Below, piece by piece: positions 26,506-53,734 of a DNA stretch of 64,000 nt. Source of the stretch: Sphingopyxis indica (lineage in GTDB: Bacteria; Pseudomonadota; Alphaproteobacteria; Sphingomonadales; Sphingomonadaceae); contig NZ_FZPA01000004.1 in assembly GCF_900188185.1 (NCBI RefSeq), forward strand, positions 124,001 through 188,000. The letters are read 5' to 3'. The translations under genes were made by a program, and so were the position numbers. Position 1 is the first letter of the stretch; each line of letters opens with the position of its first letter. Under the pieces are notes generated by a model, which was not told the DNA's origin, ran no database searches, and saw only the letters and a list, made by a program, of their open reading frames with translations.

Positions 26506-27602
26506 CGCGCGGGGTCCATCAGGCCCGTAAGGCCGGTCGGCGCGTGCGGGCCGACGAATAATTGTTCGAGTACGCCGGTGCCGCGATGCATGGCATCGCC
26601 GTCGGCCAGTTCGGCGGTGACGAGCGCCTGGATGTGCATCGCGAGCGGATTGGCCCAGCTTCGTTCCTCCTCGGTCAGCGCGTCATGCGCGACGACCGGA
26701 TCGGCGCCGTGATCGAAGCCATGGCCCCAGACTGGATGCGTGTAGCCGAGGCCGCTCATCGCGAAGACCGGCCCGGACGGCACGAGTGCCAGCGTGCTGC
26801 GGGCTCCGAGATCGACGTCGAGCCGCGCGAGCCGCCGCGTTCCCGATTCCCACGTCGCGGCGAAGGTCGCGCCATCGAAATGGCGTTCGACGCCGCCATC
26901 GCCGACGATCACCGCGCGGCGGTTCCACGGGCTGCCCTCGCCGTCGTCGTTGCTGTGGAAGAAGAGCGAGCGGCCGGCGAAATTGCACGGCGTCCACAGC
27001 CAGAAGAACTGGCTGAAATTGCCCTGCGGCGGCGGCTGCGATTCGGCGGCCCCGACGGGGCGTATCCCCCAGCTGCGGTCGCGCGTGCCGGTCCAGCCGG
27101 CATCGAGGTCGATCCGCTGTCCGTCGACCGACAGCCAGCCCGACCAGCGGCCGTTCTGCGTCATGCGCGTATAGTCCATGAACAATCGCGTGCCGTTGCG
27201 GCGGACGAAGCGCGGCTCCAGAATCGGGAAATGACGCCCGGTGAACAGCAGCTCGCCCGCGAGCAGGCCGTCGTTCGCCGCGATGGTCAGAGCGAGGCGC
27301 TCGAGCGGGGCGTCGATATGGATCGCGATCGGGCCGACCGCCAGGTCGAGCCGCTCGCCGCCCGAGCGGCGGCTCGCATGGAGGATATGCTGCACGCCAT
27401 CGACGATGACGCTGAAACTCGCATCGACGATGCCGAGCTGCGGGTAAAAGCCCATCGCCGCGGCGAAGAAGAGCGACCCGTCGGCGCTGTAGCCGTTGAA
27501 GAAATAGCGGTCATAGAAATTGCGGTCGGTGCCCGCGAAAGCCACCGGCTCGCTCGTCTGGTGCAGCGGATACTCGTCGCCTTTTGTCAGCATCATCCTC
27601 AT
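26502..27602 (-). CDS. protein of unknown function coupled to the phosphotransferase
   Basis: A 366-residue cytosolic-looking protein without signal peptide. It reads as a beta-rich fold: FAGTDRNFYDRYFFNGYSAD, DASFSVIVDGVQHILHASRR, MTQNGRWSGWLSVDGQRIDL, TGTRDRSWGIRPVG, FFWLWTPCNFAGRSLFFHSN. This resembles the lipocalin-like DUF7064/DUF7065 proteins that I recall beside phosphotransferases in sphingomonads and mycobacteria; I am not certain of that assignment. Several ATGs near 27596-27602 are possible starts. First gene of a two-gene operon. Confidence 0.7.
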   Translation of the reverse strand: MRMMLTKGDEYPLHQTSEPVAFAGTDRNFYDRYFFNGYSADGSLFFAAAMGFYPQLGIVDASFSVIVDGVQHILHASRRSGGERLDLAVGPIAIHIDAPLERLALTIAANDGLLAGELLFTGRHFPILEPRFVRRNGTRLFMDYTRMTQNGRWSGWLSVDGQRIDLDAGWTGTRDRSWGIRPVGAAESQPPPQGNFSQFFWLWTPCNFAGRSLFFHSNDDGEGSPWNRRAVIVGDGGVERHFDGATFAATWESGTRRLARLDVDLGARSTLALVPSGPVFAMSGLGYTHPVWGHGFDHGADPVVAHDALTEEERSWANPLAMHIQALVTAELADGDAMHRGTGVLEQLFVGPHAPTGLTGLMDPAR

Positions 27603-27796
27603 CCCGTTTTTTCTTGCAACCTAACGGCAGGATGGGCTGCGTCAATCCGGCCGCGAGGCGGCGGGCGACATGGCGCGGATGTTGCCGGCGAGGCCGGGCC
27701 GCACGGCGGCAGCGATGGTGCGAAAGGATCGCGGCGCTTGTCGCGACCCGCAGCGCGCGGTAGGGCGCGCGAGACGCGCAGCAAGGACGGCGAGGC

Positions 27797-28723
27797 TTGG
27801 TCAAATTTCTGTTCGTGGCGATCCTGCTTCTGCTGCTGTTCGGCGGCGGCGCGAAGGCGGTGTTGCGTGGCGGCGCCAGGTCGCTGAATCTTGCCGATCG
27901 CCTGCTCGGGCCGGGCGACGGCGCGCGGCTGTTGCTCGCCGATCAGCCCTATGGCCAGGGGCCGCGCCAGTCGCTCGACATATGGGTGCCCGAAGCCGCC
28001 CAGCCGCACGACCGGCTGCCAGTCGTCGTCTTCTTCTATGGCGGCGGCTGGAACAGCGGCGCGCGCGAAAGCTATGGCTTTGCGGGCCGCGCGCTCGCGC
28101 AGCAGGGGTTCGTCACCGTCATCCCCGACTATCGGCTGGTTCCGCGCGCGCACTGGCCCGATTTCCTGAAGGACAGCGCCGCCGCGGTCGCGTGGGTGCA
28201 TCGGCATATCGCGAGCCTCGGCGGCGATCCCGACCGGATCGCGCTGATGGGCCATTCGGCGGGCGCCTATAATGCGATGATGCTCGCGCTGGATCCGAGC
28301 TGGCTGCGCGAAGCGGGCAGCGATTTTTCGGTGATCCGCGGCGTCGCCGGGCTCGCCGGCCCCTATGATTTCCTGCCGTTCGAAAAGGGGGGCTTTGCCG
28401 ACAAGGCGATGGGCAAGGTCCGTCCGCTCGAAAAGACACAGCCGATCGCCTTCGCGCGCGGCGATGCGCCGCCGCTGTGGCTCGCCACTGGTGACGCCGA
28501 CGATGTGGTGCGCCCGCGCAACAGCCAGAATCTGGCGGCGGCGATTCTGCGCGCGGGCGGCGCGGCGGCGCTGCGCATCTATCCCGGCATGGGGCACACG
28601 GCCATCGTCATGGCGCTGTCGGCGCCGTTCCGCGGCAAGGGTCCGGTGCTCGAAGAGGCGAGCGATTTCCTGCGCGGCGTCACCGCGCGCCGCATCGCGC
28701 CGATCGGGGCTGCCGCGCAGTGA
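27797..28723 (+). CDS. membrane-anchored alpha/beta hydrolase (esterase/lipase-like)
   Basis: A 308-residue hydrolase. An N-terminal hydrophobic segment (KFLFVAILLLLLFGG, about 3-17) anchors or exports it. The oxyanion motif is FFYGGGWNSG, the nucleophile Ser is in LMGHSAGAYN, the acid is probably Asp in TGDADDVV and the base His in GMGHTAI. This pattern suits carboxylesterases of the BD-FAE/HSL group. The start is TTG 27797 with AGGACGGCGAGG upstream. The last four bases overlap the GTG of the following nucleotidyltransferase, so both belong to one operon. Confidence 0.87.
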   Translation: MVKFLFVAILLLLLFGGGAKAVLRGGARSLNLADRLLGPGDGARLLLADQPYGQGPRQSLDIWVPEAAQPHDRLPVVVFFYGGGWNSGARESYGFAGRALAQQGFVTVIPDYRLVPRAHWPDFLKDSAAAVAWVHRHIASLGGDPDRIALMGHSAGAYNAMMLALDPSWLREAGSDFSVIRGVAGLAGPYDFLPFEKGGFADKAMGKVRPLEKTQPIAFARGDAPPLWLATGDADDVVRPRNSQNLAAAILRAGGAAALRIYPGMGHTAIVMALSAPFRGKGPVLEEASDFLRGVTARRIAPIGAAAQ

Positions 28724-29490
28724 ACGGACTGATCCGCGTCCTCGTCATGGCGGGCAGCCGTCCGGGTCCCGACCCCTTGCTCTCGGGCAGCGGCGTGGCG
28801 ACCAAGGCGCTGCTCCCCATCGCGGGCCGTCCGATGCTCGCGCATGTCGTCGCGGCGCTGCGCGCGGCGTCCGAAGTAGGGCCGATCACCATTTTGGCGC
28901 AGCGCAGCGCCGAACTTGCCGCACATCCAGCGCTCGCCGGTTTCGCCGACCTGCATTTCGCCGATTCGGGGCAGGGGATCAGCGCGTCGCTCGCCGCCGC
29001 GCTGCCCGAGGGCGATGCGCCGGTGCTCGTGACGACCGCCGACAATGTGCTCCTGACGCCTGCGATGATCGCCGAATTTCTGGCCGGTGCGGAGGATAGC
29101 GACGTCGCGGTTGCGATGGTCGAAAAGCGGGTGCTGCTCGCGCACTATCCCGAATCGAAGCGCACCTGGCTCAAATTCCGCGGCGGCTGGTGGTCGGGCG
29201 CCAACCTCTTTCGCCTCCGCGGACGCCGCGTGCTGCCCTTGCTCGATTTCTGGGGCCGGATCGAGCGCGACCGCAAGCGGGGCATGAAGATCGTCGCGGC
29301 CTTCGGTCCGGCGCTGCTGCTCGCGGTGGTGCTGCGGCTGATCACCATCCAGCAGGGCGTCGCGCGCGCCGGGCTGCGCTTCGGCCTCAAGGCGAAAATC
29401 GTCCCGATGACCGAGCCGGAGGCGTGCATCGACGCCGACAAGCCCGCCGACGTCGAATTGATCGAAAGCATCCTCGCCGCCCGGCCCTGA
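28720..29490 (+). CDS. MobA-like NTP transferase domain protein
   Basis: A 256-residue nucleotidyltransferase-fold protein. The N-terminal loop VLVMAGSRPGPDPLLSGSGV with ATKALLPIAGRPMLAHVVAA, and VLVTTADNVLLTP with the metal-binding Asp, mark the GT-A NTP-transferase fold. The C-terminal half (FRGGWWSGANLFRLRGRRVL, LLLAVVLRLITIQQG) is unlike MobA and contains a hydrophobic stretch. It likely activates a phosphate ester with CTP or another NTP. GTG start coupled to the hydrolase by GTGA; it lies beside the CDP-alcohol cluster. Confidence 0.75.
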   Translation: MNGLIRVLVMAGSRPGPDPLLSGSGVATKALLPIAGRPMLAHVVAALRAASEVGPITILAQRSAELAAHPALAGFADLHFADSGQGISASLAAALPEGDAPVLVTTADNVLLTPAMIAEFLAGAEDSDVAVAMVEKRVLLAHYPESKRTWLKFRGGWWSGANLFRLRGRRVLPLLDFWGRIERDRKRGMKIVAAFGPALLLAVVLRLITIQQGVARAGLRFGLKAKIVPMTEPEACIDADKPADVELIESILAARP

Positions 29491-29610
29491 CCGGCGGGGT
29501 GCGCTTTTTTGGTGAAACGAACGTCAAGCGGCTCTTGAGTGCCGGTTTTGCCGTGATTTCCGAGCCGTGAAATGTTCCATTTCACTCGAAATCACTCTAG
29601 GGCGTCAGCC

Positions 29611-30375
29611 ATGAGCATCAAGAAAGCCATCATCCTGTCCGCCGGGCAAGGGTCGCGCCTGTTGCCGCTGACCCGCGACCTGCCCAAATGCCTGATCGAG
29701 TTCAACGGCCGCAGCCTTTTGGGCTGGCAGGTTGCGGCGCTCGTTGCCAACGGGATCAAGGATATCGTCGTCGTGACCGGTTTCCGGACCGAACGCGTCG
29801 AGGATCACGCGCTGGAACTTTATCGCGACACCGGCGCGCGCGTTCGCACGCTGTTCAATCCCTTCTTTCAGGTCGCCGACAATCTGGGCACCTGCTGGAT
29901 CGCGCGCGCGGAAATGGACCGGGATTTCATCATCCTCAACGGCGATACCATCGTCTCGGACGAAATCGTCGCCCGGCTGATCGCCGGCGCGGTCGATCCG
30001 ATCACCGTGACCGTCGATGTCAAGGACAGCTATGACGACGACGACATGAAGGTGACCCGCGATGCCGAAGGGCGGCTCCACGCCATCGGCAAGCGGCTGT
30101 TGCCCCCCGACACCGACGCCGAATCGATCGGTATGCTGGCGTTCGCCGGCGACGGGCCGGCGATCTTTCGCAATCAGGTCGATCAGATGATGCGCACGCC
30201 CGACGGCGTCGAGCGCTGGTATCTGCGCGCGATCGACATCATCGCCAAGGGCAACCGGGTCGGGACCGTGTCGATCGAGGGCCTCGAATGGCAGGAAGTC
30301 GATTTTCCCGGGGACGTCGAGGCCGCCGATGCGCTGACCGCGCGATGGGCCGCGGAAAAACGCTACGCGAAATAG
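29611..30375 (+). CDS. CTP:alcohol-phosphate cytidylyltransferase-like (LicC/phosphocholine type)
   Basis: A 254-residue nucleotidyltransferase. The N-terminal IILSAGQGSRLLPLTRDLPK (about 7-26) with CLIEFNGRSLLGWQ is the signature of sugar-1-phosphate and phosphocholine nucleotidyltransferases; NPFFQVADNLGTCWIARAEM and FIILNGDTIVSDEI follow the LicC-like layout, with GDT holding the metal-binding Asp. It should make a CDP- (or NDP-) activated alcohol for the convergent CDP-alcohol phosphotransferase. Its 3' end overlaps the end of the HIT gene by 13 bases on the opposite strand. Confidence 0.83.
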   Translation: MSIKKAIILSAGQGSRLLPLTRDLPKCLIEFNGRSLLGWQVAALVANGIKDIVVVTGFRTERVEDHALELYRDTGARVRTLFNPFFQVADNLGTCWIARAEMDRDFIILNGDTIVSDEIVARLIAGAVDPITVTVDVKDSYDDDDMKVTRDAEGRLHAIGKRLLPPDTDAESIGMLAFAGDGPAIFRNQVDQMMRTPDGVERWYLRAIDIIAKGNRVGTVSIEGLEWQEVDFPGDVEAADALTARWAAEKRYAK

Positions 30376-30791
30376 GGTTTCAGCCAGGCGACGAGCGCCG
30401 CGACCTGTGCCGCGTCCGGCTTCGCCGCCTGGCCGAGATCGGGCTGACCGGGCCAGCCCGCATCCGTCACCGTCATGCCGGCCGCCGTGCGGTTCCCCTC
30501 ATAACGGGGGATCACATGAAAATGCACATGCGGATCGACCATCATCAGCATCAGATAGTTGATCTTGGCGTAGCTCACGGCCGCCGACAGCGCCGCCTCG
30601 ATCGCCGAGGTGACCGCCTTGAGCTCGGCATGGGCGGCGGCCGGCAGGTCGCCGAACGCCGTTGCGGGTGATTTTGCGGCCAGCACCAGCGCGCCCAATG
30701 TCGGCTGGGCCGGGCGCAGCAGGATGAGCCAATGATCGAATTCGGCGATCAATGTCGCGGGATAGCCGAATTTTTCGATGGTTTCGTTCAT
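30363..30791 (-). CDS. HIT-family nucleotide hydrolase/transferase
   Basis: A 142-residue protein with the histidine triad HVHFHVIP (H88, H90, H92), the catalytic His being the middle one. The N-terminal part (LIAEFDHWLILLRPAQPTLG) fits the HIT fold. HIT proteins release NMP from nucleotide adducts; in this context CDP-alcohol turnover is a reasonable guess. Its ATG overlaps the stop of the CDP-alcohol phosphotransferase by ATGA. Last gene of the leftward operon. Confidence 0.87.
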   Translation of the reverse strand: MNETIEKFGYPATLIAEFDHWLILLRPAQPTLGALVLAAKSPATAFGDLPAAAHAELKAVTSAIEAALSAAVSYAKINYLMLMMVDPHVHFHVIPRYEGNRTAAGMTVTDAGWPGQPDLGQAAKPDAAQVAALVAWLKPYFA

Positions 30792-31882
30792 GGAACGGGC
30801 TCCTCCATCCAGCTGACGATCGGCCGCCCCGAACGGTGTGTGCGATAGGCCTGGGCCAAACGCACCGCATGGACGGCCAGCGAGATGACGGTCCACCAGG
30901 CGAGCGCGACAAGGCCGACGTCGGGACGCCCGGCGAGCAACGCGACGAACAGGATCGCCATATTCGGATTGCGGCGCGCGGTGATCAGGCGAAAATCGCT
31001 GTCGAACCGCCGCCAGACATGAATGTCCATGCCGAAGTCCTTGAGGAACAGGCCCTCGATCACCCGCTGGAGAATATAGCCCGCGATCACCGCGACCATC
31101 ACCAGTGCGAATGTCTGGGTCGAAAGCGCCAGCCCCCAGCTGCCCAGGCCGACGCCCCAGAAATACCACCAGAAGGGCGGATGGATCAGGTCGACGCCAT
31201 GGTCGGCGACATTGCCCCATTTGGACGAGGTGATCGTGCAGCGTGCGAGCTTTCCATCGACGGTGTCGAGCACCATGAAGATAAAGCCCGCGAGCATCCC
31301 GGTCCAATATTGGCCATGGGCGAAGAGATAGGTCGCATAGATGCACAGCGCCGCGCCGATCGCCGTCACCATGTTCGGCGTCATGCCGATGCTCGCTGCG
31401 CCGCGCGTCAGCCACAGCGCCAGTTCGGGCCAGAGATATTTGGTCAGCAGGTCGGTGACGCCCTTATAGGCGCCGAAATAGCTGCGGCGTTCGATTTCGC
31501 GCCGGGTGGCAGGGGTCAGATCGCGCACGAAAGGTTGTTCGAGTTTGCGAAGCTGGCGGTTGTAGAGCTTTCGCCCGTCCGCCAGGTCGACGACCGAGGC
31601 GGTCATCGGATCGCGGCCCAGCGGCGCCTGTCCGACCACCGGTACGCCGTTCCACGCGAAAACCAGCCCGGGCTGGCCCAGGACTTCGCGGAGCAGCATC
31701 GGGTCGAAAACAAAGTCGAGGTTGAACAGCAGTTCGTGCCCCGGCGCGACCGCCGCGCCGTCCTTCCCGGCGCTTTCCGCCAGCCGGCGGCAGCGTTCGG
31801 CGTTGGTCATGCCCCAGATGGGCGTGGCATTGTCGCCGATCAGGCGCACCGGCCCGGCGGCGGTCGCGATCGTGCCGCTCAT
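30788..31882 (-). CDS. CDP-alcohol phosphotransferase with extra N-terminal domain
   Basis: A 364-residue integral membrane enzyme. Residues 209-231 carry the complete family motif DG-x2-AR-x8-G-x3-D-x3-D (D209, G210, A213, R214, G223, D227, D231), so it can transfer a phospho-alcohol from CDP-alcohol to an acceptor alcohol. Five to six membrane helices lie between about 170 and 350. The first ~160 residues (GDNATPIWGMTNAERCRR, LLFNLDFVFDPMLLREVLGQ) are extra and resemble a nucleotidyltransferase remnant, as in bifunctional inositol-phosphate enzymes. Both ends overlap neighbours by ATGA, in a tight operon. Confidence 0.87.
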   Translation of the reverse strand: MSGTIATAAGPVRLIGDNATPIWGMTNAERCRRLAESAGKDGAAVAPGHELLFNLDFVFDPMLLREVLGQPGLVFAWNGVPVVGQAPLGRDPMTASVVDLADGRKLYNRQLRKLEQPFVRDLTPATRREIERRSYFGAYKGVTDLLTKYLWPELALWLTRGAASIGMTPNMVTAIGAALCIYATYLFAHGQYWTGMLAGFIFMVLDTVDGKLARCTITSSKWGNVADHGVDLIHPPFWWYFWGVGLGSWGLALSTQTFALVMVAVIAGYILQRVIEGLFLKDFGMDIHVWRRFDSDFRLITARRNPNMAILFVALLAGRPDVGLVALAWWTVISLAVHAVRLAQAYRTHRSGRPIVSWMEEPVP

Positions 31883-32952
31883 CCGTTCGCCCTCGCAAAG
31901 TCGAGGATGAGGTCGGCCTGGCGCCGGGAGGCGGGGATCGGGGACTGGTCGATGGAATCGCGCATGGCCGTTTCCTGAGCATCAATGAAGCCGGGTTGCA
32001 AGTCCGCCGCCCGGGCCAGCGCGCGGGGCAGGTCGGCCAGATCCTCGATCACCTGGCCCAGCCGCCAATGCGCAAAGGCGGGATCGCCCTGCCATGCCCG
32101 CCGGTCGAGGTTCAGGAAAATGCAGGGGCGCGGGCGCACGACAAATTCATAGATCTGGCTCGATACGTCCCCCAGATAGACGTCGGCGCTCGTCGTATAG
32201 CTCATGTCGATCGAATGGTGGCTGCCCATATCGACGCGCACATGGGGGGCCTGCGACGTGATCGGCGGCACCTGGCGCGCCAGCTTGATATGCGGTGCGA
32301 CGATGACGTTCCATCCGTCGAGCGCTTCCAGCGCCGCGAGAATGGCGGGGCCGTGGCGGATCCACGACGACAGCTCCGCATCGAAATGCGGATTGTAGAG
32401 AAGCACCGGGCGGTCGTCGGGGAAAAAGCGCTGAGGCTCCGTGTCGAGTTCGAATTTGGGATAGCCGGCGACGACGATATTCTGCTCCGTGCCCAGGCCG
32501 CGCTCGATCATTCGGCGGCGATCTTTGATCCCGCCGACCAGCGTCAGGTCGAAATAGCGGTGGCGTTGCTTATATCCTCCTTCGCGATCGCCCGCCCCAT
32601 GCTTGATGAGAATCGTGCGCGAAGGAAATCCGGGGACGCGGGAGAGCCAGGCGGTGGTGATTTCGGTCGTCACGAGAACCGGGAAGCGCGTGAGCGTGCG
32701 ATAGTTGAGCAGCAGGGTGGCCAGCCGCGACGGCTGGCGAAAGAGCGTGTCGGGGCCGGGCGGGCGGCGCAGGCGCACCGGATCGAGCAATCCCTGCGGA
32801 TCGCGGCTTCGGATCAGATCGAGAATGCGCTCCGACGGCGACAGGACCGAAATCCGCACATCGTCGCGGCGGGCAAGTTCCAGCGCGGTCGGCAGCCAGT
32901 GATAGAGTTGCTGCGCTTCGGCGATGGCGAGAAAGGCGATGGAGGTCGGCAA
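31879..32952 (-). CDS. CDP-glycerol:glycerophosphotransferase family protein (TagB/TagF-like)
   Basis: A 357-residue GT-B-type transferase. ILIKHGAGDREGGY, IVVAGYPKFEL, PVLLYNPHFD and particularly DVYLGDVSSQIYEFVVRPRP are features of the glycerophosphate transferases of teichoic-acid synthesis (TagB, TagF). It would add a glycerol- or polyol-phosphate unit from a CDP donor to a lipid or glycan acceptor at the inner membrane face. The start is TTG 32950-32952 with GGAG upstream. It ends by ATGA overlap into the CDP-alcohol phosphotransferase. Such enzymes are unusual in Gram-negatives outside some capsules. Confidence 0.83.
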   Translation of the reverse strand: MPTSIAFLAIAEAQQLYHWLPTALELARRDDVRISVLSPSERILDLIRSRDPQGLLDPVRLRRPPGPDTLFRQPSRLATLLLNYRTLTRFPVLVTTEITTAWLSRVPGFPSRTILIKHGAGDREGGYKQRHRYFDLTLVGGIKDRRRMIERGLGTEQNIVVAGYPKFELDTEPQRFFPDDRPVLLYNPHFDAELSSWIRHGPAILAALEALDGWNVIVAPHIKLARQVPPITSQAPHVRVDMGSHHSIDMSYTTSADVYLGDVSSQIYEFVVRPRPCIFLNLDRRAWQGDPAFAHWRLGQVIEDLADLPRALARAADLQPGFIDAQETAMRDSIDQSPIPASRRQADLILDFARANG

Positions 32953-33017
32953 GGATAGACTCCGGGAGGCGCGGAATTAGCCGGGAATGTGGAGCTGCGA
33001 CAAGGGCGCAATCGAAG

Positions 33018-33719
33018 TTAGCAGGCCGCGGTATCGGTTTCGAAATCCGCCGTCCGCCAGCCGTGCCGCGCCGCGTGCGCGGCCGGCCCTTTGCCCCGCC
33101 CGATCAACCAGGCTTCGTGGGCGAGCGCAAAGGTCGGGGCATCGCTGACATGATCCGAATAGAAGCGGATGCGGCGGGCGCCGCCGGGGACGTTGGCATC
33201 GAGCCATTCGGTCACGCGCCGGGCCTTTTCCGCGCCATAGCAATTGCCCCCGTCGAGCGCGGGCAGCCAGTTGCCCGCGGCATCGCGCTGGTGGCGGGTG
33301 GCGACGACGGCGTCGAATCCCAGCGCTTCGGCGATCGCATGAGCATAGAATTCAGGCGCGGCGGTCGCCATCAGCAGGCGAAACCCCTCGGCGCGATCGC
33401 GCGCCACGGCGGCGCTGGCACCCGGCGGAACATCGGCGGGGACGCGCCAGCCCGCAAAGCGTTCCGCCAGCTTTTCGGCGCGGTCCGGGGTCAGGCGCGG
33501 CCCCAGCATCAATCGAATGGCGGCGGGCTTGAAACGATCGCGCCCATAAAGCCGCAGCGCATGGCCGAGACCCAGCGCTGCGAGGCCGGGCAGCAGCAGC
33601 AGGCGCCAGGGGGCTTCGTGCCAGGCCGCCCAGATCAGGAACAGGGTGAAGGTCGGCCGGCGCAGCAGGGTGCGGTCGAGGTCATAGATGGCGACGCGCG
33701 TCGCTGTGGGGTCTGTCAC
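33018..33719 (-). CDS. HAD-superfamily phosphatase (HAD-IB/SerB-like)
   Basis: A 233-residue hydrolase. Motif I is YDLDRTLLRR (nucleophile D13, acid/base D15); motif II is Thr/Ser in LLMATAAPEF; FYSDHVSDAPTF gives the final metal-binding Asp pair. This is the HAD-IB layout of phosphoserine- and PGP-phosphatase-like enzymes. A helical cap near 25-90 includes a hydrophobic stretch. It could dephosphorylate the product of the CDP-alcohol phosphotransferase. GTG start with AAGGA 10 bases upstream. It lies 65 bases upstream of the CDP-glycerol transferase gene in the same direction. Confidence 0.83.
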   Translation of the reverse strand: MTDPTATRVAIYDLDRTLLRRPTFTLFLIWAAWHEAPWRLLLLPGLAALGLGHALRLYGRDRFKPAAIRLMLGPRLTPDRAEKLAERFAGWRVPADVPPGASAAVARDRAEGFRLLMATAAPEFYAHAIAEALGFDAVVATRHQRDAAGNWLPALDGGNCYGAEKARRVTEWLDANVPGGARRIRFYSDHVSDAPTFALAHEAWLIGRGKGPAAHAARHGWRTADFETDTAAC

Positions 33720-33753
33720 GCGGATCGGGTCCTTTTGGCGGGATTCGTTGGAG

Positions 33754-35310
33754 TCATGACGCTTCCGATAGGGTTCCGCCTTGGAGGCGCAGCCGTCGCC
33801 CGACGCTGCCGAGTGAGGCGCGGTCGGCGTCGGGCAAGGCGAACCGCACCGACAGCCAGATGGCGGCCATGGCCAGCAGGATGATCAACGGCAACGCCGC
33901 GGCGTCGGGCAGCCGTCTTGCCACAAAGGCCAACAGCCCCGCCACCAGCGCAACCAGCCCGCCGCGCAGCGCTACCGACAGAAATTGCCCATCGAAGGGA
34001 TGCAGCTTCTCGGTCAGGGCGAGCTGGAGCATCGGAATGCCCGCCATCACGATCAGGCCGGCCGCCATGCCCAGCGTAACCCCGGTCAGCGCGTCCATAT
34101 GACCGACGATCAGCGAACCCGCCCCGATGGCGACAAGGACGCCGGCGATGCTGGCGGTGAGCTGGTGGCGAAAGGCCGCCACGACTTGCAGGATGGGCTG
34201 CGAAATGCCGAGAACCGCCTCTGCCGCGCGGGCGAGGAACAGGATGATGACCGCGCCCTGCGCGACATGCGCCTCAGCGCCGAACAGCCCGAGCAGCGAC
34301 GAGCTGCCCGCCGCCAGCACCGCCGCCAGCGGCAGCGCGACGGCTGAAATCAGGCGTGTCGCATAGGCATAGATGGCGGCGACCTGTGCGCGGTCGGCGC
34401 GCTCGGCGCTCGCCGCGAGCGGCGCGAGGACATAGACGAAGGCGATGCGGACGAGCTGGACGACGCTCGACAGCTTGCGGGCGATGGTGAACAGGCCCGC
34501 CGCCGCGGCGCCGCCCGCGCCGGGGATCAACAGGTTGAGGATCAGCGCCGGCGCATCGCCGAACAGGCGGGCGATGACGTTCGAGGGCAGGATCGAAAGT
34601 CCCGCCCAGAAGGTGTTCTTCGCGGTCGCGCTGCCGCGCGGCGCGCGGCGCAGCTCGGCGAAGCTGTAATAGCGCGCGAGCAGCCGGACGCAGAGGAAGG
34701 CGGTCACCGCCAGCGAGCAGATGTGCGCGATGAACAGCCCCTTGAGCCCGAGCCCGCCCGCGAAGAACAGGCCCGCAAAGACGAGCCGCAAAATCTGTTC
34801 CCAGACGATCCGCAGGCGGATCTCGGCCCCGAACACCATGCGCGCGCGCATCGCCGACGTCGCAATCTCGACGAACGCCCAGAGGGGGAGCGCCCAGACG
34901 AAGAGCTGGATCGCAGGCACGACGAGCGGCCGGTCGCGCGTCGCGACGTTGAGGAAGGGGGCGAGGTCGGCGGCGAACAGTGCGATCCCGCCGGCGACGA
35001 CCAGGCACGGGCCGACGCCAAACAGCATCGCGGTGCGCAGTGCGGCTGCGGCTTCGGCATCGCTCGCCGATTGCGGCACGGTGCGCTGCATCGCGCTCGT
35101 CATGCCGAGGTCGAAGATATTCTCGATCAGGTTGATCGCCGCCCAGAGCACCGCATAGAGGCCATAGCCCGCGAGCCCGAACATCGCGACATAGAGCGGC
35201 TGCGCGACGATCTCGACCACCGCGCCGAGCCGCGCGAGCACGGTCGTGCCAAGCCCCTTCGCAACATGGCGACTGGTGACGGCTGGCGCTGGGGCGGGCT
35301 CTTCGCTCAT
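33754..35310 (-). CDS. polysaccharide/lipid flippase (MOP superfamily, Wzx-like)
   Basis: A 518-residue protein with 12-14 hydrophobic helices. The N-terminus (GLGTTVLARLGAVVEIVAQP, MFGLAGYGLYAVLWAAINLI) and the repeated six-helix organisation match O-antigen/teichoic-type flippases of the MOP group. It would move the lipid-linked product of the cluster across the inner membrane. ATG 35308-35310 (MSEEPAP). It starts the leftward set flippase - HAD - CDP-glycerol transferase - CDP-alcohol phosphotransferase - HIT. Confidence 0.88.
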   Translation of the reverse strand: MSEEPAPAPAVTSRHVAKGLGTTVLARLGAVVEIVAQPLYVAMFGLAGYGLYAVLWAAINLIENIFDLGMTSAMQRTVPQSASDAEAAAALRTAMLFGVGPCLVVAGGIALFAADLAPFLNVATRDRPLVVPAIQLFVWALPLWAFVEIATSAMRARMVFGAEIRLRIVWEQILRLVFAGLFFAGGLGLKGLFIAHICSLAVTAFLCVRLLARYYSFAELRRAPRGSATAKNTFWAGLSILPSNVIARLFGDAPALILNLLIPGAGGAAAAGLFTIARKLSSVVQLVRIAFVYVLAPLAASAERADRAQVAAIYAYATRLISAVALPLAAVLAAGSSSLLGLFGAEAHVAQGAVIILFLARAAEAVLGISQPILQVVAAFRHQLTASIAGVLVAIGAGSLIVGHMDALTGVTLGMAAGLIVMAGIPMLQLALTEKLHPFDGQFLSVALRGGLVALVAGLLAFVARRLPDAAALPLIILLAMAAIWLSVRFALPDADRASLGSVGRRLRLQGGTLSEAS

Positions 35311-52816: not shown

Positions 52817-53734
52817 CTAGAGCCAGCCCTCGCGTCGATACCAGCGAACGGTTTCGGCGAGCGCGTCGTCGGTCGCGATTTCGGGTTGCCACAGATCGGA
52901 CGGCGGACAGGCGCCATCGGCGACCACCCAGTCGGGATGCGCGATATAGCGCGCGCGGTCGGGGGTCAGCTTGGCGCGGCCGCGGCGCAGCAGCGGGTCG
53001 AGCCGCCCGCCGGCTTTGAGCAGCGATGCCGGAATGGCGAGCGTCGAGACGCGGCTGCGCCCGACCGCGCGGCCGATCGCGCGCGCGAAGGCGCGGTGGG
53101 TCCAGCCGCCCGGCTCGCCGTCGTCGGGTTCATAGACCTGCGCGATGCTCGCCTCGCGATCGGCGGCGAGTGCGACGAGCAGCCGCGCGAGCTCGTCGAC
53201 ATAGATCGCCGACATGCGCCCGGCGGGGGGAAGCAAGGCGATGCCGCGCCGCGCCATGCGAAACAGGTCGAGCATCTCGGTGTCGCCGGGTCCGAAGACC
53301 GCGGGCGGGCGCACGATCGTCCAGTCGAGCCCGCTTTCGCACACGATCGTTTCGGCGCGCGCCTTCGACCAGCTATAGTTCGACAGTTCGGCCTCGCGCG
53401 CGGCGAGCGAGGAGACATGGACGAAGCGCGCGACCCCCGCCGCGCGCGCGGCGTCGACGACATGGCGCGTCGCGGTCGCATTGCCCGCCTCGAAATCGGC
53501 GCGCGTCGGGACGTTGACGACCCCCGCGATATGCATCACCGCGTCGCTGCCCTGCGTCATCGCGGCGAGCGCGTCGGGCCGGTCGAGCGCGCCCGCGATC
53601 CAGGTCACGCCTTCGCGCTCGGGCTGGGGGCGGCGGGTGAGCGCGCGGACGTGCCAGCCCGCCGCGACCGCCCGCGCCAGCGTTGCCCGGCCGACGAAGC
53701 CGGTCGCGCCGGTCATCGCGAGGGTGGGGGTCAT
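52817..53734 (-). CDS. NAD(P)-dependent epimerase/dehydratase (extended SDR)
   Basis: A 305-residue Rossmann protein. Cofactor loop GATGFVGRATLA (about 8-19) and the catalytic YxxxK in YSWSKARAE. AGVVNVPTRADFEAGN and the later WTIVRPPAVFGPGDTEML fit extended SDRs acting on sugar-nucleotide or steroid-like substrates; no specific substrate can be named. Single gene; A5 repeat lies directly upstream. Confidence 0.85.
   Translation of the reverse strand: MTPTLAMTGATGFVGRATLARAVAAGWHVRALTRRPQPEREGVTWIAGALDRPDALAAMTQGSDAVMHIAGVVNVPTRADFEAGNATATRHVVDAARAAGVARFVHVSSLAAREAELSNYSWSKARAETIVCESGLDWTIVRPPAVFGPGDTEMLDLFRMARRGIALLPPAGRMSAIYVDELARLLVALAADREASIAQVYEPDDGEPGGWTHRAFARAIGRAVGRSRVSTLAIPASLLKAGGRLDPLLRRGRAKLTPDRARYIAHPDWVVADGACPPSDLWQPEIATDDALAETVRWYRREGWL

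Follow-up and report, generated by a model that had tools for sequence, protein, structure and literature searches.

We found that eight genes at positions 27,797 to 35,310 of a 64,000-nucleotide stretch of the Sphingopyxis indica genome (the window) combine a constant frame with an exchangeable cassette. The cassette, cpgD-HIT-cpgA-TagF-HAD, lies in a frame of esterase, cofC and flippase genes, and its usual replacement in relatives is a gene pair encoding an LmtA-like protein and a P-loop protein. The core of the locus is most likely part of the known ceramide diphosphoglycerate (CPG2) pathway: its phosphotransferase, cytidylyltransferase and CofC-like gene match Caulobacter genes by family and order. 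Judged from sequence, the cassette very probably belongs to phosphosphingolipid synthesis, and the locus probably supplies an anionic phosphosphingolipid with its second-stage head group. The differently filled slot in relatives suggests that bacteria without classical lipopolysaccharide (LPS) exchange their surface-lipid chemistry.

The genome holding the window (G000) comprises 4.15 Mb in 37 contigs. All eight open reading frames (ORFs) listed by an initial annotation of the window were open at the positions it gave:

27797..28723, + strand: alpha/beta-hydrolase (esterase), constant frame; Pfam BD-FAE, COesterase, Abhydrolase_3
28720..29490, + strand: CofC/MobA-like nucleotidyltransferase (like CC_1153), constant frame; Pfam NTP_transf_3, structure model
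29611..30375, + strand: CpgD-like CTP:phosphoglycerate cytidylyltransferase (P0002); Pfam NTP_transferase, active-site residues
30363..30791, - strand: HIT protein coupled to cpgA; Pfam HIT
30788..31882, - strand: CpgA-like CDP-alcohol phosphotransferase; Pfam CDP-OH_P_transf, motif intact
31879..32952, - strand: putative TagF-fold transferase (P0005), variable cassette position; AlphaFold model and Foldseek, profile matches
33018..33719, - strand: HAD-IB phosphatase; Pfam HAD
33754..35310, - strand: MOP-type flippase, constant frame; Pfam Polysacc_synt_3 and Polysacc_synt

Both ATGA overlaps described among the minus-strand genes (HIT/phosphotransferase/TagF-like) were present in the sequence, and the HIT and CTP transferase genes converge, sharing 13 bases. 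The annotated families were recovered by Pfam above cut-off for seven proteins, but the TagB/F-like protein fell below it. The phosphotransferase motif was intact in the alignment (D206-x2-D209-G210-x2-A213-R214 and G223-x3-D227-x3-D231), read against what we take to be the family's motif. The grouping exceeds chance, as the block recurred in 9 out of 9 relatives first examined, with the TagB/F-like gene in 8 of them.

Match to the Caulobacter ceramide diphosphoglycerate pathway

In C. crescentus, CC_1159 (CpgA), CC_1152 (CpgD) and CC_1153 (CofC-like) are required for CPG2 (PMC11324152), and CpgD is a CTP:phosphoglycerate cytidylyltransferase (PMC12275187). Orthologs of the Caulobacter ceramide phosphoglycerate (CPG) genes have already been reported from Sphingomonas wittichii (PMC11324152). 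The initial annotation knew of no named pathway with this gene set, a view that was not supported for the core genes.

The CpgA-like phosphotransferase is 38-46% identical to orthologs in cpg-type clusters of distant alphaproteobacteria. Four such stretches, taken gene by gene (L039/L040, L041/L042, L043 and L047), hold genes for a DAGK-type kinase, a CpgC-like protein, a metallophosphoesterase and LptF2/LptG2-, CerS-, CofC-, SPT-, CerR- and AasR-like proteins, not all genes being present in every stretch, and their order agrees with that published for C. crescentus (PMC11324152). CpgA orthologs also adjoin sphingolipid genes in Novosphingobium.

The CpgD-like protein P0002 shares 53% identity with its homolog in the cpg-type cluster L047. 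Twelve published CpgD residues around CTP and glycerate (PMC12275187, PMC13228409) were placed on P0002 by eye from numbering and motif, some shifted by one or two. Among 78 rows (P0002 and 77 homologs, in which the window and some loci entered twice), positions 12, 16, 26, 110, 111, 112, 146, 161 and 172 were invariant, positions 91 and 203 were kept in 77, and position 94 was T in 48 rows and S in the other 30. Thr88 of CpgD, which acts via its backbone, was not retained as threonine. A search of P0002 against the PDB returned no CpgD chain among 36 matches.

cpgA and the HIT gene lay on one strand in 87 out of 90 loci and no more than 30 bases apart in 86 of these 87, some loci entering twice. 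The second and third His of the HIT motif were invariant in 98 rows, and the first was present in 81. CC_1157 of Caulobacter was considered as a candidate HIT gene, because in L043 the place between lptF2 and the phosphoesterase gene is occupied by one; in L042 and L047 no gene stands there, and the passages of PMC11324152 consulted do not name the product of CC_1157. The model of the CofC-like protein (pLDDT 94.3) had 2dpw as its best fold match, followed by GlmU, KdsB and IspD, and we suspect from the model that helices at 188-219 make membrane contact. S. indica has another, less closely related CofC-like nucleotidyltransferase gene (G000:C25:316506-317273), as do most genus genomes.

Further genes of the pathway were found on contig C15 of the same genome, as matches to spt (52% identity), cpgC (44%), cpgB (29%, partial), lptF2 (32%) and lptG2 (30%); the window itself gave no match to spt, cpgB, cpgC, cerS or lptF2. 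The lineage had been described as lacking classical LPS, and this agrees with the result for LpxC (PF03331), which had no match in the S. indica genome, while the control search was positive in E. coli and Caulobacter, with 4 out of 14 controls positive. Without LpxC, the genome is unlikely to encode classical lipid A.

To assess co-occurrence, we used an evenly sampled set of 289 alphaproteobacterial genomes (the class sample) and 60 Sphingopyxis genomes (the genus sample). CpgC was present in all 20 class genomes with CpgA, compared with 34 out of 289 overall (Fisher 4e-22; 19 out of 19 and 3e-21 with the S. indica genome left out). The TagF-like protein occurred in 10 class genomes, 8 of which had CpgC (6e-7). 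In the genus sample, CpgC and the CofC-like family were each found in 59 out of 60 genomes, and full-length CpgA and CpgD in the same 35.

The neighbourhood scan covered ~10 kb around cpgA, some contigs being shorter, at the best 80 of 544 confirmed relatives, which are not an even sample; the titles of 79 name what we take to be Sphingomonadales and one names Proteobacteria. The eight genes did not all travel together across Sphingomonadales: HIT was found at 76 of these loci, cpgD at 63, cofC at 48, the TagF-like gene at 43, HAD and esterase at 17 each, cpgC at 18, cpgB at 7 and a GT4 gene at 5. A CpgB-like kinase neighboured cpgA in 14 out of 75 loci, with weak match scores; 11 of the 14 carry Novosphingobium in their titles.

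Several neighbouring features were seen in passing. On contig C15, spt and the cpgC-like gene are separated by a hybrid sensor kinase gene (L068:6806-8761). In the distant cpg-type cluster L043, a fatty acid hydroxylase gene (L043:3677-4459) stands between the cerS- and lptG2-like genes. In the distant genus g40, three genes for CDP-alcohol phosphotransferases occur within ~22 kb of the sphingolipid cluster, and two of these are of a different, longer type (L042:6815-8026, L041:5199-6494; L039:6975-8189, L040:8147-9820). At 52820-53734 the window holds a reductase-type ORF with 33% identity to the CerR-like protein of a distant cluster; the family is broad and the two may be unrelated.

An exchangeable cassette in a constant frame

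CpgA and CpgD were lacking from 25 out of 60 genus genomes, 13 of which we examined around cofC. The constant frame was kept in 12 out of 13, as cofC, slot, flippase and sdhB, with DAGK and metallophosphoesterase (MPE) genes farther out; L190 was rearranged. The flippase was retained in all 13 and the esterase in 11 of the 12 that kept the frame (it was absent from L187); in L190 the esterase lay apart from cofC. By contrast, cpgD, HIT, cpgA and the TagF-like gene were absent around cofC in 13 out of 13. The retention of esterase, cofC and flippase in relatives without cpgD, HIT and cpgA is a further departure from co-occurrence of all eight genes. The CofC-like gene is common to the frame of both cassette types and so probably serves a shared step.

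In 11 out of 13 of these relatives the cassette was replaced by a pair consisting of a 246-residue PEMT-domain LmtA-like protein and a 229-residue P-loop protein, located in the slot in ten and beside the flippase in L190. The slot was empty in L191 and held a HAD gene only in L193. The LmtA-like protein matched TIGR04571 with 107.9 bits (E 7e-31), under the cut-off of 325. Its gene was full-length in 20 out of 60 genus genomes, with zero overlap with the 35 that carry CpgA (chance 1.3e-11 if the genomes are independent), and lay no more than 1.9 kb from the best cofC match in 20 out of 20. Five genomes (G003, G013, G015, G047 and G058) had neither CpgA nor the LmtA-like gene.

A trait tree built from up to five flanking proteins at 25 loci (12 with and 13 without CpgA) implied that the cassette trait changed six times, and a single clade of CpgA-bearing loci was rejected (approximately unbiased test, p 0.0003). 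FastTree trees of the flanks, flippase and CofC gave 6, 4 and 5 changes, respectively.

Between the Rv3169-family and esterase genes, relatives (L084, L085, L181-L189) hold DAGK-like lipid kinase and metallophosphoesterase genes where the window has 195 bases only (27602-27797). The kinase gene was not found in the S. indica genome, with a query that tblastn does detect in relatives.

The TagF-fold transferase and the predicted lipid

P0005, which the initial annotation called TagB/TagF-like, had no Pfam match at E 0.001 and reached 16.8 bits to PF04464, compared with a cut-off of 22.1. Its AlphaFold model, made from 29 sequences, had a pLDDT of 91.9, and the nine best Foldseek matches were all TagF (E 2.5e-12 to 2.8e-11), with other GT-B enzymes and UDP-GlcNAc 2-epimerases close behind. 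In profile searches the best PDB sequences were TarL and Cps3D (E 0.0026 to 0.11). The assignment as TagF-type rests on the predicted structure.

The TagF-like gene occurred in 50 out of 60 genus genomes, 31 with CpgA and 19 without. Coordinates compared by eye placed it directly upstream of cpgA in all 31 genomes with both genes, that is, in 31 of the 35 that bear CpgA. Among 11 CpgA-bearing relatives, its position was filled by alleles of 74-76% identity in three cases and of 37-43% in five; two relatives had a GT4 glycosyltransferase there and one had nothing. The three with the closer alleles had a CpgA of 84% identity and the five with the more distant ones a CpgA of ~73%; we considered a co-evolving allele pair and kept this as an observation, because kinship may account for the pairing.

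The pathway that we propose would begin with CPG made by genes elsewhere in the genome (spt, the cpgB-like kinase and the cpgC-like gene). The CpgD-like enzyme would convert CTP and 2-phosphoglycerate to CDP-glycerate, from which the CpgA-like enzyme would transfer phosphoglycerate onto CPG to give CPG2, following a published model that is itself partly hypothesis. The TagF-fold protein, or the glycosyltransferase in its place, may then extend the lipid; a TagF-fold enzyme would add one or more CDP-alcohol-derived phosphate units, most simply phosphoglycerate, and a phosphoglycerate-extended ceramide would be among the products. The HAD-IB, HIT and CofC-like enzymes may process phosphorylated or nucleotide-linked intermediates, the flippase would turn the lipid over, and LptF2/LptG2-like proteins would carry it outwards. 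In genomes without cpgA, family and place suggest that the LmtA-like protein would cap the lipid phosphate, swapping extension for capping; that it acts on this same lipid is about as probable as that it does not. The initial annotation's outline of a CDP-activated alcohol transferred to a lipid and exported by a flippase fits the gene families, but the best reading of the activated unit is glycerate, which is an acid and not a polyol.

For the TagF-like protein, we regard the chances of a role on this lipid as evenly balanced. A somewhat less probable alternative is that the cassette ends at CPG2 and that the TagF-like protein decorates another lipid or polysaccharide with another CDP-alcohol, standing beside cpgA by position alone. 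The 19 genus genomes that carry its gene without CpgA or CpgD favour this alternative; in CpgA-less relatives (L069-L079, L086 and L087) the gene lies elsewhere, with a HAD gene beside it in 13 out of 15 loci examined, often then an FkbM methyltransferase gene, and two-component genes nearby. However, the unbroken adjacency to cpgA wherever both occur, the presence of CpgC in most class genomes with a TagF-like protein, and the position of the TagF-like gene inside the cpg-type stretch in L043 and L044 all argue against it.

Several observations weigh against the proposed role of the locus in phosphosphingolipid synthesis. The cpg names on the compared loci were assigned here by family and gene order, and the CpgC-like protein has no Pfam match. 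In S. indica the CPG-type genes are split over two loci, the cassette is not clustered with spt, and the CC_1158-like phosphoesterase (MPE) of relatives, a type that contributes in Caulobacter but is dispensable there, was not found in the window's locus, in a search that covered the locus only. The co-occurrence tests take genomes as independent and ignore kinship, and G150 and G324 carry a TagF-like protein without CpgC, G324 being a weak match. The CpgA-bearing genome G009, at 88% completeness, shows an LmtA-like match (63%) that is partial and sits at the end of a contig; we left it out of the count. On the flank tree, only 3 out of 22 inner branches were strongly supported, and on their own they force a single change; the cassette label showed some clustering (shuffling gave values as low in 21 and 34 of 500 cases), and several rows were gappy. 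Finally, in the 19 genomes that carry it without CpgD the TagF-like protein cannot use CDP-glycerate from CpgD, which argues against a simple CDP-glycerate polymerase.

An inositol-phosphate pathway (phosphatidylinositol phosphate or di-myo-inositol phosphate) is improbable: the best NCBIfam match of the phosphotransferase was PIP synthase (50.8 bits), and a bifunctional DIPP enzyme was matched in its two halves by P0002 and the phosphotransferase, P0004 (58.7 and 25.6 bits), but these scores are far under the curated cut-offs (170 bits for PIP synthase and 580 for DIPP), the glycerate-site residues of CpgD are conserved and the locus is linked to CpgC. We give equally little weight to a sphingolipid-independent, teichoic-acid-like polymer with an undecaprenyl carrier, which the TagF fold and MOP flippase would fit; the CTP transferase belongs to the NTP_transferase family and not to that of TagD, whose type is described as non-homologous to CpgD (PMC12275187), the locus co-occurs with CpgC, and no initiating transferase family matched among the eight genes.

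Carried further, the phosphosphingolipid reading allows a bolder proposal, which we consider unlikely as a whole: a ceramide-anchored, teichoic-acid-like poly(phosphoglycerate) in sphingomonads without classical lipid A, in which CDP-glycerate made by CpgD would feed CpgA as well as a TagF-fold polymerase. The cassette would swap the head group between extension (cpgD-HIT-cpgA with the TagF-fold protein or glycosyltransferase) and LmtA-like capping, much as O-antigen loci do in LPS bacteria.

Comparison with known systems

The phosphosphingolipid reading bears on how sphingomonads that lack lipid A construct and diversify their outer leaflet. If it is true, this locus decides the anionic head group and predicts extended- versus capped-sphingolipid species, the HIT gene coupled to cpgA gains a place in CPG2 synthesis, and a TagF-fold enzyme enters a Gram-negative sphingolipid pathway. 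Opposite cassettes within one genus make the reading directly testable. The core pathway has been described from Caulobacter and noted for one Sphingomonas species. We found no description of the TagF-fold gene at cpgA, the HIT-cpgA coupling or the LmtA swap in the literature searched, supplements excluded; these form the part not found described.

P0005 shares the fold of the TagF, TarL and Cps3D polymerases, as modelled, and a stretch of the D-x-SS-x2-YE type. By contrast with them, it is short, single-domain and under the Pfam cut-off, and the gene beside its own is of sphingolipid type and does not belong to teichoic acid synthesis. The protein of the alternative cassette resembles LmtA, the Leptospira lipid A Kdo2 1-phosphate O-methyltransferase, in its TIGR04571 match and PEMT domain, but it scores well under the family cut-off and lies in a sphingolipid-linked frame; the LpxC search that bears on this comparison covered the S. 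indica genome only. The closest known system is the C. crescentus cluster CC_1152-CC_1165 (PMC11324152, PMC12275187, PMC13228409), which shares the cytidylyltransferase, CDP-alcohol phosphotransferase and CofC-like gene, with a flippase and LptF2/LptG2-like proteins in the genome. S. indica differs in having its genes over two loci, with TagF-fold, HAD-IB and cpgA-coupled HIT genes added, and in carrying them in a block that is exchangeable within the genus.

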